Source of the DNA: Ruminococcus flavefaciens
GTDB taxonomy: Bacteria > Bacillota > Clostridia > Oscillospirales > Ruminococcaceae
Assembly: GCA_023662725.1 (NCBI GenBank)
Contig: JAMPIL010000016.1
Location: 1 to 37,114, forward strand
Length of the DNA stretch: 37,114 bases
Reading direction: 5' to 3'
Numbering within the stretch: the stretch's first letter is position 1; the number at the start of each line of letters is the position of its first letter. Under the pieces are notes generated by a model. That model was given only the letters and a program-made list of their open reading frames with translations. It made no database searches and had not been told where the DNA came from. The position numbers were made by a program, and so were the translations under genes. Positions 7,699-24,108 of the stretch are shown in pieces.

Positions 7699-7847
7699 AT
7701 AAAAACAATATAATAATTATAGGTTATTAAGGTAGTAAAGGCTCACTACACACTTTATTTAAAGTATCTGAGATGATGGATACGCCGCCCATCTAATAAC
7801 CAAAACATCAAAGGGACTGCAATTTGTTTTGTAGTCCTTTTTTTATT
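7699..7847 (+). ncRNA. Candidate structured small RNA, about 150 nt
   Basis: Bounded by a perfect promoter and an intrinsic terminator. An 8-bp closing stem GGTTATTA (7722-7729)/TAATAACC (7794-7801) encloses a hairpin GTAGT/ACTAC (7732-7749). It also encloses a segment with two competing pairings: GTATC with GATAC, or AGATG (in CTGAGATGATGG) with CATCT (7790-7794). A three-way junction or a switch-like RNA is possible. It does not match any riboswitch class I can recognise, and no coding frame with a ribosome site is inside. Confidence 0.65.
7812..7847 (+). terminator. Terminator of the small RNA
   Basis: GGGACTGCA pairs with TGTAGTCC (one G-T pair) around an AT-rich loop and is followed by TTTTTTT. 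Confidence 0.8.
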
Positions 7848-12121: not shown

Positions 12122-12156
12122 GGAATTAAAATATGAAAATTTGGAGGAATTTTAAA

Positions 12157-13993
12157 ATGAATGAATTAATGAATAGTAATACAAAGCCAGTTTACATACT
12201 CGGATGTGAAGCCAAAGATTTATATGAAGTAAAACAATTGCACGCCCCTACCGTTAACGAGCAGACCGGACAATGCCTTGGATACGTGTGCGAGAATTTA
12301 AAACGATTCAAAAATACGCTCGATTACAGTCTTGATCTTATTAAACTAAGAGAAATATCACAAAAACACTATGGCAAAAAGAAGTCGTTCTTTTACGATG
12401 ATAAATTGGGCAAAGAATTTACCCGGCGTGTTGTCTGCGTAAATTTTGATTTAGCTTATAAGGAGTTCAATAAACACGGGGATATTTATATCAAGGACGG
12501 TTACTCAATGACTGATATTAAAGCCGTTGGTAAATACGGAGATGTTACCTTTTATAAAGATGGTGTGTGTATAGGAGTAAAAATTGGAGACATTACTGAT
12601 GAAAATGTAAACGTGATATGGAATGATGTTCCTGAGTATTTTAAATACGATAAAATTAATCATAAAATTAAACTTTGCAAGACTATTCCGACGCTGATGA
12701 ATCGCAGTGATCTGAGAAAAGACTTATATGAGAATGGTTTTACTTGCAATGGAATTGAATTTGTACGATATAAGCGGTCATCCGGTAGCAGCCGTGTGGG
12801 TAAATGCTTGTTTATAGATAAAAAACTATATCCTGATATGCACAAATGGGAGATGTGCAGACTTGACATCAGAGAAAGCGACGAGGTTGATCTCGCCGGA
12901 TTAGAAGCGTACATATCACTTCCATCAAGCAGTTGTATCGATACTCTTGAAATAAAACCTGAAAATATACTTGTTATTGACGATTATGAATCAGAATTCG
13001 AAGATGACGTAATAGCCGTGTATGGCGAGGGAGAAAATTTTATTGCCAAAGAAGAAAAAGTCAAGATTAAAAATAGTATTTTTGACGGTCAGAGTCTCAT
13101 GGATGAAAGCTTATATAGCGAAAAATACTCATGTAGAACAATGCTGCTTCTCCGCAATAGATTTTTCAAGTCGGCTTGTTTTAAAACCAAGATGCAGGAT
13201 TGGTTTCGAGATAATAATATTACTGACGTTTCGCAGCTCAACGGCTACACTCGTGCCAAAAAAATAGCGGACATCAAGTTGATAACCACTCCGTCAAGTA
13301 TCAAATATATCAAATTCGGCACGTTAGACCAATGGTTTGACAATCTTTATACAACATTCGGAATCGTCAAATACGAAAAGCCGACTCATTATATAGACGG
13401 AAATCTTGTTCAGTGTCATTATCAGTTATTAAATACGCTTCAGCTTTCAAGAGATGATGTCAAAAATTTATTGCAGCCCAATTTTGACTATCTGAACCTT
13501 ATAAGAAAAGACACTGCCGTAATGCGATATCACTTAAAATATCCTTATTCGTTTGCGAATAATGACGAAGGCGCTAACACAAAAGACGAAATCGTTATGA
13601 AAGTTCTGGGTATGAATAGCAAATTTGCTGATACCAAATTATACGATGGATTCCGCAAAGATACTACAAAAGCTATACTGAAAAATTATCGAAACGGTCA
13701 CATTCTTATAAATGGCAATTATGAAACTTTGCTCGGTAACGGCATAGAGATGTTACAGCACGCCATCGGAACATTTAAGGGAGAAAGCATTCTCGGAGTT
13801 GGCAACATATATACAAAGCGTTTCCCGTTTGGTAAAAAATTACTCGGCACAAGAAGTCCGCATATTAATTCCGGTAATATTCTTTTAGCAAATAATATAG
13901 CAAACGATTTAATAGACAGATATTTTGTGCTAAGTAAAGAAATTTGCTATGTAAATGCTATAGGTGAAAATATACAACAAAGACTTAATGGGT
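12157..13993 (+). CDS. YonO-like single-chain RNA polymerase, exon 1
   Basis: First 612 codons plus one base of a 957-residue RNA polymerase related to YonO of SPbeta and to RNA-silencing RNA polymerases, which share the two double-psi beta-barrels of multisubunit enzymes. Seen: FDGQSLMD at about 309-316 with a following Lys-rich FKTKMQDW (barrel that supplies catalytic lysines in the family), and GTRSPHINSGNILLA at about 564-578. The start at 12157 has GGAGG 9 nt upstream; 12133 is an alternative. Without splicing the frame stops at TGA 13993-13995, right before the catalytic aspartates. Joined to 15054-16090 the reading frame is exact (2,874 nt). In SPbeta the homologue transcribes late genes. 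Confidence 0.8.
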
Positions 13994-15053
13994 GAACAAT
14001 CATGCCCCCTTATACAGTAATGTATATTGAATAATTTGGTGAACCTATAAATATAGGGTGTCTTGTTTGAAAAACAAGGCTAACGGCAGACATCTAAGGA
14101 AATCAACTCACCTTAAAAATAAAAAAGAGGTGGGAATATGAAAGAAATATGGAAAGACATAGAGGGATACGAAGGATATTACCAAGTAAGCAATCTTGGT
14201 AATATAAGAAGTTTGGATAGAACCATTACAAGAAGCGATGGTGTCACCCACTTGAGAAAGGGCAGTGCTATGGCTAAAAGAATTTCGAGTGATGGTTATG
14301 TAATAGCCAAACTTTCTATGAATGGGAAAAGCCAATCTATTGGTGTCCACATATTGGTAGCACGACACTTTATCCCTAATCCCGACAATTATCCTGAAAT
14401 AAACCATAAAGATTGCAATCGTAAAAATAATTCTGTAGATAATCTTGAATGGTGTACTCATCAGCAAAATGTTAAGTATAGTGCGGATTTAGGACATTAT
14501 AAGGGGAGAAATGGAGAGCTTAATCCTAATTACAAAAATGATACCCTTAAAAAGAAATATGCAGCAGATCCAGAATTGGCAAAACGTCTTTTGCGCAGAC
14601 CAAGAGAACAAAATGGCAGAGCAGTTCCAATAAGAATGAAATCAGAATATGATACGCTTGATTTTAAATTCATAGGAGAAGCTGCCGAATATCTGAGAAA
14701 TAACGGATACACTGCTTCCAAGGTCGATACAATTAGATCTCGCATAACTGAATCCATAAAAAAGCACAAAACATACTTAGGTTGTACATTTGAAAGAATA
14801 TAAACCGAGTTGATTTCTATGACAATGCCGTGCGAAGTCTCACAACGAGAAACGTGTAACGACTATCCTTCGGCGGTGAAATTCCGCATCAGGAGTAGGG
14901 CTGAGTGAAATTCTTAGTGGGTGAAATTCCCTTAAATCGAAGTGCCAGACACGGAGAAATCCTTGATACCCGTGAACAGACATGGGGTGATGAAATAGTC
15001 TAATCCCACTTTTAAATAAGTGTTAAAATATTGCGAAAGCAAGGGTATAAATG
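13994..15053 (+). ncRNA. Group I intron in the RNA polymerase gene
   Basis: The intron starts after the T of AATGGGT and ends in G (ATAAATG), obeying the group I rule of U before the 5' site and G at the 3' end. GCCC just inside the intron can pair with exon GGGU including the U-G wobble (P1). GACTAT (14861-14866) and ATAGTC (14995-15000) form a P7-like pair; GAAATCAACTC (14099-14109) and GAGTTGATTTC (14807-14817) form an 11-bp stem whose loop holds the endonuclease gene. Splicing joins RLNG-C-DYDSDS across the junction. Exact borders are inferred from frame and motif logic. Confidence 0.85.
14138..14803 (+). CDS. Intron-encoded HNH homing endonuclease with NUMOD4 domain (221 aa)
   Basis: Begins KEIWKDIEGYEGYYQVSNLGNIRSLDR, a clear NUMOD4 domain (about residues 3-30). 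The HNH core spans about 70-107, with HILVARHFIP, then NHKDCNRKNNSVDNLEWCT containing the metal-binding His and Asn. The C-terminal 60 residues (FKFIGEAAEYLRNNGY...) look like a DNA-binding helix module. Ribosome site AAAGAGGTGGGAAT. It lies wholly in a peripheral stem-loop of the group I intron and would cut intron-less polymerase alleles to spread the intron. Confidence 0.92.
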   Translation: MKEIWKDIEGYEGYYQVSNLGNIRSLDRTITRSDGVTHLRKGSAMAKRISSDGYVIAKLSMNGKSQSIGVHILVARHFIPNPDNYPEINHKDCNRKNNSVDNLEWCTHQQNVKYSADLGHYKGRNGELNPNYKNDTLKKKYAADPELAKRLLRRPREQNGRAVPIRMKSEYDTLDFKFIGEAAEYLRNNGYTASKVDTIRSRITESIKKHKTYLGCTFERI

Positions 15054-16090
15054 GTGATTACGACTCCGACAGTATATTGCTTACAGATAACAAAACATTA
15101 ATTGCCACTGCCGAAAAGAATTATCATAGATTCAAAGTACCGACTTGTTTTGTTGAAGCTAAAAAAATTGTCCATCATTATACAAATGAGGACAAGTCAA
15201 AACTGGATATAAGAACCAGTGTAAATAAAATAGGTGAAATTGTAAATCTTTCTCAGTATCTCAATTCTATCATGTGGGAAAATATTTACAATGATATACA
15301 TAATGGAGCGGATGCTGGAACTGCATTTGATAATCAAAAAGAAATCTACCTTGATATCTGCATACTGGCAGTAAGTTCCGGAGTTGAGATAGATTCGGCA
15401 AAAAGGGAATTTGATGTAGACATAACCAAAATGCTTAATTTTCTTAAGAAGAAATACGCTGTTTATACAGATGTCAACAGTAAACGATTGCTTACCAAAC
15501 CCATGTTTTTCAAGAATATTACTCTTGGCAACGGATATTCCTTGAATGAAAATCATTATTTCAGATATTTTGAAACTTCAATGGATTATCTGCAAAAAGA
15601 GATCGACCGCTTCAGGGCTGATAAGATAAAAAATAAGAATCTGCCATTTTATGAAATAATTAAGCCTATGGATATTGATTGGACAAAGGCAACTACAAAG
15701 AGGTATAAAAAAGTCAATAAAGTCATTGAAGAAATAAAAATGCTTCGTAGTAAAATACAGGAGCTGTATATTGATTATCATAATAAAAGTAAAGAAGAGA
15801 AATCAATAGTTGCCAAGGAAGTCAGCGTACTTAAATCCCAGTACATTGATATTCTTGATTCAAGACATTTTTCAGAGATTGAACTATATCTGCTTTTAAG
15901 AGAGATAGACAAAGAAAAAAACAGCGGTTATGCCAGAACAATCTTTAACACATTATTCTCAATGGCAAATCCCCTGCTTTATGACATGATAAGAGATACT
16001 TCAGAAGGTATATATAAAATAACAAAAAAGACCAATGAAAACAGCGTCACTCTCTTCGGATACACATATTTTAAGAAAAAAATAGGCTAA
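15054..16090 (+). CDS. YonO-like RNA polymerase, exon 2
   Basis: Begins with the catalytic loop (C)DYDSDSILLTDN, residues 613-625 of the joined protein. The three Asp (614, 616, 618) correspond to the metal-binding DxDxD of RNA polymerases (NADFDGD in beta-prime). The rest is helical (KEIDRFRADKIKNKNLPFY, long charged helix KRYKKVNKVIEEIKMLRSKI) and ends LFGYTYFKKKIG. The unspliced frame is open back to 15020 but has no ribosome site, so this is not a separate gene. A hairpin 35 bp downstream closes the operon. Confidence 0.8.
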
Positions 16091-16687: not shown

Positions 16688-16993
16688 ATGGCAATTAATA
16701 CAAAGAAGTTTGCAGGAGTGGTTCAGACCACTCTTGCCGAAAAATACGATACAGCAGTTACAAAAAAGGACTGCGAGAAATTTGTAAACGCAGTTCTTGA
16801 CTCAATTACGGACTGCCTTGCTGACGGAGAAAGCGTCAAGTTCACTGGTTTCGGTTCATTTGAAGTGCACGAACGTAAGGAAAGGACTTGTATTAATCCC
16901 AGAACAAAGGAAAAGATGTTCGTTCCTGAAAGCAAATCCCCTGCTTTCAAGGCTGGAAAGTCTCTCAAGGACGCTGTAAAAGGTGAATCGTAA
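16688..16993 (+). CDS. HU-family DNA-binding protein (101 aa)
   Basis: Nucleoid-associated protein that bends DNA. The family signature FGSFEVHERKERTCINPRTKE is complete, with Pro in the arm tip (INPRT), and the N-terminal helices carry VVQTTLAEKYDTAVTKKDCEKFV. Start at 16688 after GAAGGAGAATACAT; the longer frame from 16634 overlaps the previous gene. SPbeta also carries an HU-like gene (yonN) beside its polymerase. The stop overlaps the next start as TAATG. Confidence 0.93.
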   Translation: MAINTKKFAGVVQTTLAEKYDTAVTKKDCEKFVNAVLDSITDCLADGESVKFTGFGSFEVHERKERTCINPRTKEKMFVPESKSPAFKAGKSLKDAVKGES

Positions 16994-22533: not shown

Positions 22534-24108
22534 TTGAGTACAGATGAAAAAATAATCGAAGCAGAATCGTTTGACTTTGGCTTTAATACTTCTCTTGATG
22601 TCGGGTATTACATGAGCTGTAACTGGCTGTGGGACGCTCCCTGCGATATGTCATTGATAAACGAGTATATTAAACATCCGTATGAACATCAGAAAATACT
22701 TCGTGAGCTTGCATGGTGGGCGTACAATACTAATGGTTCAGTCAGTGCGGCGGTAGAGTATCTGCGTACCATGCACACGCTGGATAAGGTAGTTGTATGC
22801 AAATCAAGAAACTTGATTGGAAAGAAACCCATGTCGTTTCAAAAGAATAAGAAAAAAATGCTGTCGGTTTTGGAGTGTATCAAGTACAAAGAACGTATCA
22901 GGGATGCAATTCTGAAAAAGTGTAACGACGGCATTTATTTTTATTATTTTGAAGTCAGGCAATCCAATCTTTTTAAGCAAAAATATCTCAGTGACGTTGA
23001 TGTTGCAAATATTGCCGACATAAACGAACTTGGAGTAAATGCAAGTATTATTTCACTTCCTGTTGATTATTGTAAAATCGTAGGACGAAAAGACAGCAGT
23101 ATGGTAATTGCTTTTGATCTGAAATATTTTCAGAGTTTTAATGAAAACGAATTAAAAAGGCGGCTTCTGACATTCCCGAGAGAAATCCAAAAAGGTTGGT
23201 TAGCATACAAAAAATCAGGCTTTTCTTTAAACTCATGGCTTGTACTTAATAATAACCATACGATCGTTGATAAGTGCAAAACTCCCGATAACAAGCCCTA
23301 TGGCATACCGTTTGCAATATGCGCCCTCGATGATATTTTGTATGAGAACTATTTTACTCAAACAAAAAGAACAGTTCTTGACAGCGTTAATAATCAGATA
23401 GTTTATGAAATATTCCCAGAAGGAAAAGATAAGGGCAAATGTTCTCTTACAAATACCTAACAGAAGGATCAGCACGATATTGTTAAAGACGCCGTAACTC
23501 ATAAAAAGCACAGCAATGGAGTTGCTTTTTTCTCTCTTGCTTCGGGAACTAAACTTGATTCTATCAAGACTGATGTTTCACTGCTTGACGAGAAAAATCA
23601 AAAAGCAATTGAAAATGCCGTTCCGAAGTCTCTTGGCATTGCAGCGGCTCTTTTGAACGGTACTGACAGCGGAAACTACGCAACTGCAACGCTCAACCTT
23701 GAAATGATTGCGGCTAATATTTATTCGTGGATCGAGAACTTTATGAACGAGCTGAATAAATGCATTAACGCAAATATAATCCAGGACAGAAAATGCATCG
23801 TTTCATGCTATATTCTGCCGACCACATATGTAAACAGAGATAAGTTTTTTTCAGAAATGAAAACTCTGTACGCAGAATGCGGAGGTTCTTTGCAAGCTGT
23901 TATTGCCGCAAGCGGTATGGATGTTGAATCTTACCTGAGTCTGCTTGACGAAGAAAAGGACGGCGATTTTGACGATCGTTATCCGCCTCATCAGTCCATG
24001 TATACCCAAAGTTCAAAGGGTGGGCGACCGAGCGCTGATTCAAATAATTCAAACACTGTGCAAGGCAAATCCAACAACTCAAATGCAAATCCCAAACCGT
24101 CAACGTAA
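22534..24108 (+). pseudogene. Portal protein gene with an in-frame TAA
   Basis: TTG start after AGAAAGGCGGTGATAAAATT. The product resembles a phage portal: YEHQKILRELAWWAYNTNGSVSAAVEYL near the start, then IVGRKDSSMVIAFDLKYF and YENYFTQTKRTVLDSV. The frame meets TAA at 23458-23460 and continues in the same frame with portal-like sequence (QKDQHDIVKDAVTHKKHSNG...SIKTDVSLLDEKNQKAIENAV...) to 24108, about 523 residues in all. A single C-to-T change (CAA to TAA) explains it. The tail is Ser/Asn-rich. With the stop, the protein loses its C-terminal 40 percent and the phage may be defective. Confidence 0.75.

Follow-up and report, generated by a model that had tools for sequence, protein, structure and literature searches.

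The DNA analysed here, called the window throughout, is the whole 37,114-nucleotide (nt) stretch of the Ruminococcus flavefaciens contig JAMPIL010000016.1 (forward strand), to which all coordinates refer. It holds a gene for a YonO-like RNA polymerase, which is interrupted by a putative group I intron directly in front of the codons for the catalytic aspartate triad (Table 1). Exon 1 matches PHROG 8308 (E = 4e-73), and the two exons are 75% and 61% identical, respectively, to an intronless relative (L024), in whose numbering the triad corresponds to D615, D617 and D619. The intron splits the codon that precedes the first catalytic aspartate (T|GT-GAT), and joining the exons yields Cys-DYDSD. 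The exon ends proposed in an earlier reading of the sequence alone (the sequence-only reading), T13993 and the GT at 15054, hold up, as intronless relatives read through this point with one codon at the join. Counted from the ATG at 12133, the joined frame comprises 620 + 1 + 344 = 965 amino acids; the 957 codons given earlier are correct with respect to the open join, while their number fits an internal ATG eight codons later. As also claimed, the unspliced open reading frame (ORF) of exon 1 (12133-13995) ends at a TGA directly after AAT GGG, and the sequence itself implies that only splicing completes the active-site motif: translated as it stands, an unspliced messenger RNA would yield only a 620-residue fragment without the catalytic triad. 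Annotation of such phages cuts the RNA polymerase in two and can hide its active site.

Table 1. Features of the interrupted polymerase gene in the window.
Feature	Position	Strand	Remarks
YonO-like RNA polymerase, exon 1	12133..13993	+	620 codons plus the T that opens the split Cys codon
Putative group I intron	13994..15053	+	1060 nt; U precedes the 5' splice site, G is the 3' end
Internal guide AATCATGCCC	13998..14007	+	Intron nt 5-14; GCCC pairs with exon 1 GGGU (P1), AATCAT with exon 2 GUGAUU (P10)
P3, 5' strand UUUGG	14035..14039	+	Partner CCAGA, 14945-14949
P4, 5' strand CGGCA	14084..14088	+	Partner UGCCG, 14826-14830
Peripheral 11-base-pair stem	14099..14817	+	GAAATCAACTC / GAGTTGATTTC, 14099-14109/14807-14817; between the P4 strands, encloses the endonuclease ORF
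HNH endonuclease ORF	14138..14803	+	221 amino acids, NUMOD4 and HNH_3; presumed homing endonuclease
P7, 5' strand GACUA	14861..14865	+	Partner UAGUC, 14996-15000
P3, 3' strand CCAGA	14945..14949	+	Pairing examined over 12 introns
P7, 3' strand UAGUC	14996..15000	+	Pairing examined over 12 introns
RNA polymerase, exon 2	15054..16090	+	Starts GT GAT TAC GAC, where GT completes the split Cys codon; stop at 16088-16090
Catalytic triad codons, D-Y-D-S-D	15056..15070	+	Three Asp invariant in 47 intronless relatives

Relatives of the gene were collected from viral contigs by alignment queries, each yielding at most 80 loci (queries with single proteins returned 0 and 1 loci). The resulting census comprises 263 loci (L001-L262 and the window, duplicates included), 243 of which contain both exon ends; the other 20 are 17 distant YonO-like genes (L007-L023) and three contigs (L031, L137 and L156). 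Exactly three bases lie between the glycine codon and the first aspartate codon (...NG to D[FY]DSD) in 223 of these 243 loci, e.g., L001 (...NG-A-DYDSD), L003 (...SG-A-DFDSD) and L004 (...NG-C-DYDSD). The remaining 20 loci carry inserts of 294-1063 nt, 13 of them distinct (including the window and its copy L002). Of the 146 distinct intronless contexts, 93 have an Ala codon in front of the first aspartate, 38 a Cys codon, 13 a Ser codon and 2 a Met codon, and cysteine is therefore a normal residue at this position. Intact relatives, which the sequence-only reading had named as a possible source of contrary evidence, thus carry the one-codon join, including its Cys-DYDSD form.

Several features of the insert point to a group I ribozyme. 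Its ends conform to the group I rules, with T13993 (forming the U.G pair) opposite G14004, and G15053 as the last base. The internal guide spans GGGT|GTGATT with 10 contiguous pairs, wobbles included, which was reached by 59 of 4000 shuffles of the first 44 intron nt, and the guide of the intron in L005 (AGTCATGCCC) is nearly identical to it; guides of several other introns are matched by 7-15% of shuffles (586, 460 and 454 per 4000 for L239, L035 and L254, respectively). The core pairings were counted over 12 of the 13 introns, leaving out L005, the core of which shows no blastn similarity to the others. P1 with the exon sums to 64 base pairs (shuffled mean 47.1; 0 of 5000 partner shuffles as good), P3 forms 60 of 60 pairs by 8 different pairings (48.5; 0/5000), P4 forms 58 of 60 (52.2; 0/5000) and P7 60 of 60 (56.6; 75/5000). 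P1, P3 and P4 covary across these introns, P1 follows the sequence of the exon (GCAGAT/GTCTGC, GCGGAT/GTCCGC, AGCGAT/GTCGCT), and P7 is altered on both sides in L077 and L216 (GAUCA/UGAUC). A second intron was not found in the window by a search for core motifs.

The endonuclease predicted earlier within an 11-base-pair stem was recovered with both of its domains (Pfam: NUMOD4, 2.6e-15, 56.8 bits, cut-off 23.4; HNH_3, 4.6e-9, 36.2 bits, cut-off 24.8). The ORF is intact and is preceded by a Shine-Dalgarno-like AGAGGTGGGAAT; the related intron in L006 has no ORF at the corresponding place. The distribution of the introns suggests that the element is probably mobile. On a tree of exon 1 proteins (227 proteins of at least 500 amino acids, reduced to 146 rows by removing intronless rows that shared 97% identity or more with a retained one, which also took out the sisters L072 and L237), 13 gains or losses are needed to account for 13 intron-bearing rows; in the case of the window and L006, two gains and a gain followed by a loss are equally short. 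Tracts resembling co-conversion occur in two of six pairs of sisters with and without the intron: identity between L077 and L072 drops from 93-97% to 60-80% in a tract that starts about 120 nt upstream of the site and ends 150 nt downstream, and then returns to 97%, and between L239 and L237 it falls to 57% in the first 30 downstream nt only. The codon preceding the first aspartate differs in all six pairs.

A number of points weigh against reading the insert as a functional and mobile group I intron. The window P1 consists of 4 pairs only. The shuffles used for the core pairings mismatch partners, such that the kinship among the introns remains and the figures are to be read as support, not as probabilities. 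No intron in the window reaches the Rfam gathering score: the match to RF00028 stands at 21 bits (E = 0.0097) against a required 50, nor is this score attained by any of the 11 scanned introns at the motif in other loci (L006, L005, L091, L077, L146, L240, L241, L254, L130, L216 and L035; L095 lay outside the scan). Regarding mobility, no clear dip in identity was seen in four of the six sister pairs (L241/L078, L216/L079, L130/L089 and L035/L032), and the tree was built by a quick procedure that included no bootstrapping and placed L005 on a very long branch. The Infernal search that the sequence-only reading had put forward as a check therefore gave a split answer, as a match is present, albeit below the gathering score. 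The weakness of this match may be due to the endonuclease ORF and to extra hairpins between P7 and P3. The group I claim nevertheless stands on the comparative pairings and on the precise empty sites in relatives.

Extra hairpins (P7.1/P7.2) between the 5' strand of P7 and the 3' strand of P3 define subgroup IA. This interval holds hairpins in single-sequence folds of six relatives without the ORF, and the window intron probably belongs to subgroup IA. In the window itself, the interval (14870-14945) shows three successive hairpins with UGAAAUU loops, which resemble Gut-1 (18.6 bits, E = 1.2, probably chance). The weak matches to Gut-1, TMV_UPD-PK3, snR39, STnc210, CRISPR-DR6 and Hammerhead_HH9 near the intron were all treated as chance.

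The 13 distinct introns occupy two sites. Four are inserted within the codon before the first aspartate (site A, T|GT-GAT), namely those of the window, L006 (identical to L104), L005 and L035 (identical to L218). The other nine lie 5 nt downstream, directly after the first aspartate codon (site B, e.g., GCGGAT|TTTGAT), in L146, L077, L091, L095 (= L097 = L124), L130, L216 (= L228), L239 (= L240), L241 and L254. The split codon starts with T in all four site-A genes, compared to 45 of the 146 intronless contexts, in keeping with the requirement for a U.G pair at the splice site; the window reads NG-C vs. QG-A in its five closest intronless relatives. The L006 (G078) intron at the site used in the window measures 344 nt, lacks an endonuclease ORF and is 85% identical to the window intron over 242 nt. 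While blastn links 12 of the 13 introns, L005 matches the others in the endonuclease gene only, and since its core is without similarity to theirs, site A has probably been entered by at least two intron lineages. A third insertion area lies about 105 codons downstream, at or near a conserved ...SGxEIDKAK, with introns in L077, L151 and L005. Those of L005 (77.2 bits) and L077 (56.6 bits) pass the RF00028 gathering score, L151 being outside the scan. L005 (MT837385.1, 4276-5540) contains two different group I introns in one RNA polymerase gene, of which the one at the triad has an endonuclease ORF. The set combines a single gene family, two sites at a distance of 5 nt, close intronless sisters, and related as well as apparently unrelated ribozymes with and without endonuclease, and thereby amounts to a clear natural experiment on why introns settle in catalytic codons. 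As a separate observation, the contig of L006/L104 (JAMPEF010000041.1), which has a site-A intron, is titled as a metagenome-assembled genome of Alistipes senegalensis, but most named kin come from Clostridia, and the genome that contains the window, one of the same genus, has 38-39% G+C in two stretches; either the title or the binning of this contig may be mistaken.

The identity of the host gene as a YonO-like RNA polymerase is borne out by profile alignment and by structure. The alignment to YonO suggested in the sequence-only reading was run with a profile of 47 intronless relatives against the counterpart in Spbetavirus BUCT082, a protein taken as such from its genus and its neighboring HU gene and used in place of SPbeta YonO itself; hhalign gave 99.3% (E = 2e-20) and placed the catalytic DFDSD on DFDYD. 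An intronless relative has a fold of the QDE-1/RDR2 type, i.e., the single-chain two-barrel fold of RNA polymerases. A profile search of PDB sequences returned nothing relevant (three rows, E = 0.17-0.18), and Pfam assigned no family to three full-length relatives. The surroundings are comparable as well: in BUCT082, a single hypothetical gene separates the YonO counterpart from HU downstream, and in the window two short frames lie between the polymerase and a downstream HU gene (16688-16993; Pfam PF00216, 4.4e-28). SPbeta YonO is likewise a single-chain RNA polymerase with a catalytic aspartate triad and transcribes late genes (PMC5467207). The triad of the window reads DYDSD, and the word intron is absent from the main text of that paper (PMC5467207).

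Taken together, the YonO-like RNA polymerase gene of the phage in the window most likely harbors a self-splicing group I intron, whose excision would give Cys-DYDSD and the full enzyme, a reading to which we assign a probability of about 0.94 on comparative sequence evidence. The transcript would fold into a P3-P7/P4-P6 ribozyme, the guide would line up both exon ends, and two transesterifications would ligate GGGU to GUGAU. The most likely role of the HNH enzyme is to cut copies of the conserved motif that lack the intron, and repair would then copy the intron in. Self-excision would keep a gene working that is interrupted at its most constrained point, and the conservation of this point would keep the endonuclease target available in related phages. 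In this scheme, in vivo splicing, cleavage by the HNH enzyme and any control of late transcription are inferred.

A dead intron, or another insert that no longer splices and leaves a broken polymerase gene in a prophage, would account for the patchy presence (20 of 243 loci) and the low Rfam score, and the in-frame stop in a portal-like ORF elsewhere in the window suggests that decay or sequence errors may occur. However, both exons are fully open, the guide, P3, P4, P7 and the terminal G are exact, the HNH ORF is intact, and the core resembles that of the separate intron at the same site in L006, all of which makes loss of splicing very unlikely. It is scarcely credible, in turn, that the insert is a spacer between two polypeptides forming a split polymerase, with the second one started inside the insert. 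A frame that could open with a GTG at 15020, in the 3' part of the intron, does continue through exon 2, but both parts share one frame in all 146 distinct intronless contexts, the break would adjoin the catalytic triad, and the ribozyme pairings covary.

Compatible with a self-splicing intron is the idea that it also acts as a timing switch, in which splicing efficiency sets the appearance of the late polymerase. Late transcription could indeed depend on splicing, given that the catalytic motif requires it and that YonO transcribes late genes (PMC5467207), and this dependence now becomes directly testable. However, the 223 loci without an intron at this point, along with close intronless sisters (L239/L237, L241/L078), show that the intron is dispensable in the family, and a switch is improbable.

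The preference of group I introns for conserved sites is established (PMC2814812), and several phage systems come close to the present one. In PhiPA3, the gp210 intron adjoins conserved aspartate residues of a phage RNA polymerase beta gene, and its HNH enzyme attacks the empty site of a competitor, nicking it in the relative (PMC11620839). That gene encodes a virion RNA polymerase beta subunit of the multisubunit type in Pseudomonas jumbo phages (PMC11620839), whereas the window concerns the DxDxD triad of a single-chain YonO-like enzyme in phages mostly associated with Clostridia, with two adjacent sites used repeatedly. In the crAss-like phages of the gut, group I introns likewise reside in core genes, and a figure legend places a LAGLIDADG intron enzyme in the transcription block with the DxDxD RNA polymerase; the polymerase family and the hosts are different, and repeated insertion at the triad is not described in the available text (PMC7886860). 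In Jug phages, the genes for TerL, NrdD and DNA polymerase carry numerous group I introns, with metatranscriptome reads supporting the splicing of 37 of 76 predicted introns; the predicted hosts are Bacteroides/Phocaeicola, and introns in RNA polymerase genes are not mentioned in the portion of the paper at hand (PMC12363816). For the catalytic triad of YonO-like enzymes, titles and abstract beginnings among the papers listed from the open-licence PMC literature contain no report of introns. The earlier statement that no case is described in YonO-type enzymes agrees with this, but it has to be seen against the close precedents in other phage RNA polymerase genes (PMC11620839; PMC7886860). The kind of intron is thus already known, and the pattern of repeated invasion at one active-site motif is unusually clean.

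The 3' end of the site-B introns, a variant of which is carried by the window intron, extends the pattern to other genes. The exact 20-base motif occurs in at least 120 stretches of viral contigs, with 122 copies among the matches listed; 114 downstream frames of at least 40 amino acids among these matches form clusters of 24, 12, 7 and fewer members. Four genes of the RNA polymerase family of the window (L304, L321, L348 and L373) belong to the cluster of 24; four other members of this cluster that were tested, as well as one from the cluster of 12, match PHROG 35857, 8308 or 37506. PHROG 8308, to which exon 1 of the window belongs, has no named function, and L277 and L283 are linked by 35857 only. 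Other host genes tested behind the motif encode DNA polymerase III, NrdD, terminase and tape measure proteins. Automatic detection of the 5' splice sites was unreliable, and only cases from upstream frames were used; the 11 loci in question were chosen because exon 2 looked like a DxDxD motif, and hence describe a pattern rather than a rate. The insertion points in RNA polymerase-like genes are SMNGAD|FDSD (L385), QFD|VDGD (L400), DADYD|GDIV (L286) and, with the exact base uncertain, ...SDSD|VDGD (L391 and L323); those in phage DNA polymerase III genes are GYPD|IDVDF (L395), GYPD|VDIDM (L386), IPD|VDSDF (L404), VLD|VDFDI (L409) and LP|DIDID (L411). In 5/5 DNA polymerase III cases, the match of the upstream part to PHROG 405 (DNA polymerase) extends to positions 437-444, and in 3/3 RNA polymerase cases tested, that to PHROG 8308 extends to 534-550, while downstream parts start at position 445 of PHROG 405 (L266) and at positions 551 (L323) and 554 (L286) of PHROG 8308. 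From where these matches end and resume, introns with the shared 3' end sit at the first aspartate of unrelated catalytic motifs, their kinship resting mainly on the 3' motif.

It is possible, albeit on balance doubtful, that one phage group I lineage has specialized in catalytic D-x-D-x-D motifs as DNA, invading several RNA polymerase subfamilies and the PD-x-D-x-D of phage DNA polymerase III, independently of protein homology, immediately behind the first aspartate codon or a few bases in front of it, and that homing additionally changes the amino acid next to the active site, from Ala to Cys in the branch of the window. If true, a selfish RNA would edit and police the catalytic core of transcription and replication enzymes. 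The last of the 11 chosen loci, the L408 record (that of L270, G157), has three copies of the 3' motif within about 1.1 kb of an RNA polymerase-like gene, possibly representing three introns.

Overall, the window looks like a prophage, with an integrase, anti-repressors, two head proteins (one of them portal-like) and a possible terminase. The G+C content of its first 20 kb is 34.6%, whereas two further 20-kb stretches from the same genome have 37.9% and 39.4%. At its right end, a long ORF in the standard code runs off the sequence and stays open to the end, and an alternative genetic code, which had been considered there, is not needed. The portal-like ORF (22534-24108, + strand) contains an in-frame TAA (23458-23460), with the frame open on to 24108, which might reflect a nonsense change, recoding or a sequence error. 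A skipping-rope RNA (RF02924, 69.4 bits) is located upstream of the polymerase block (7722-7801, + strand). Among the relatives, 19 clustered transfer RNA matches lie downstream of the intron-bearing RNA polymerase gene in L254 (11192-14021), and L130 and L216 contain matches to transfer-messenger RNA.

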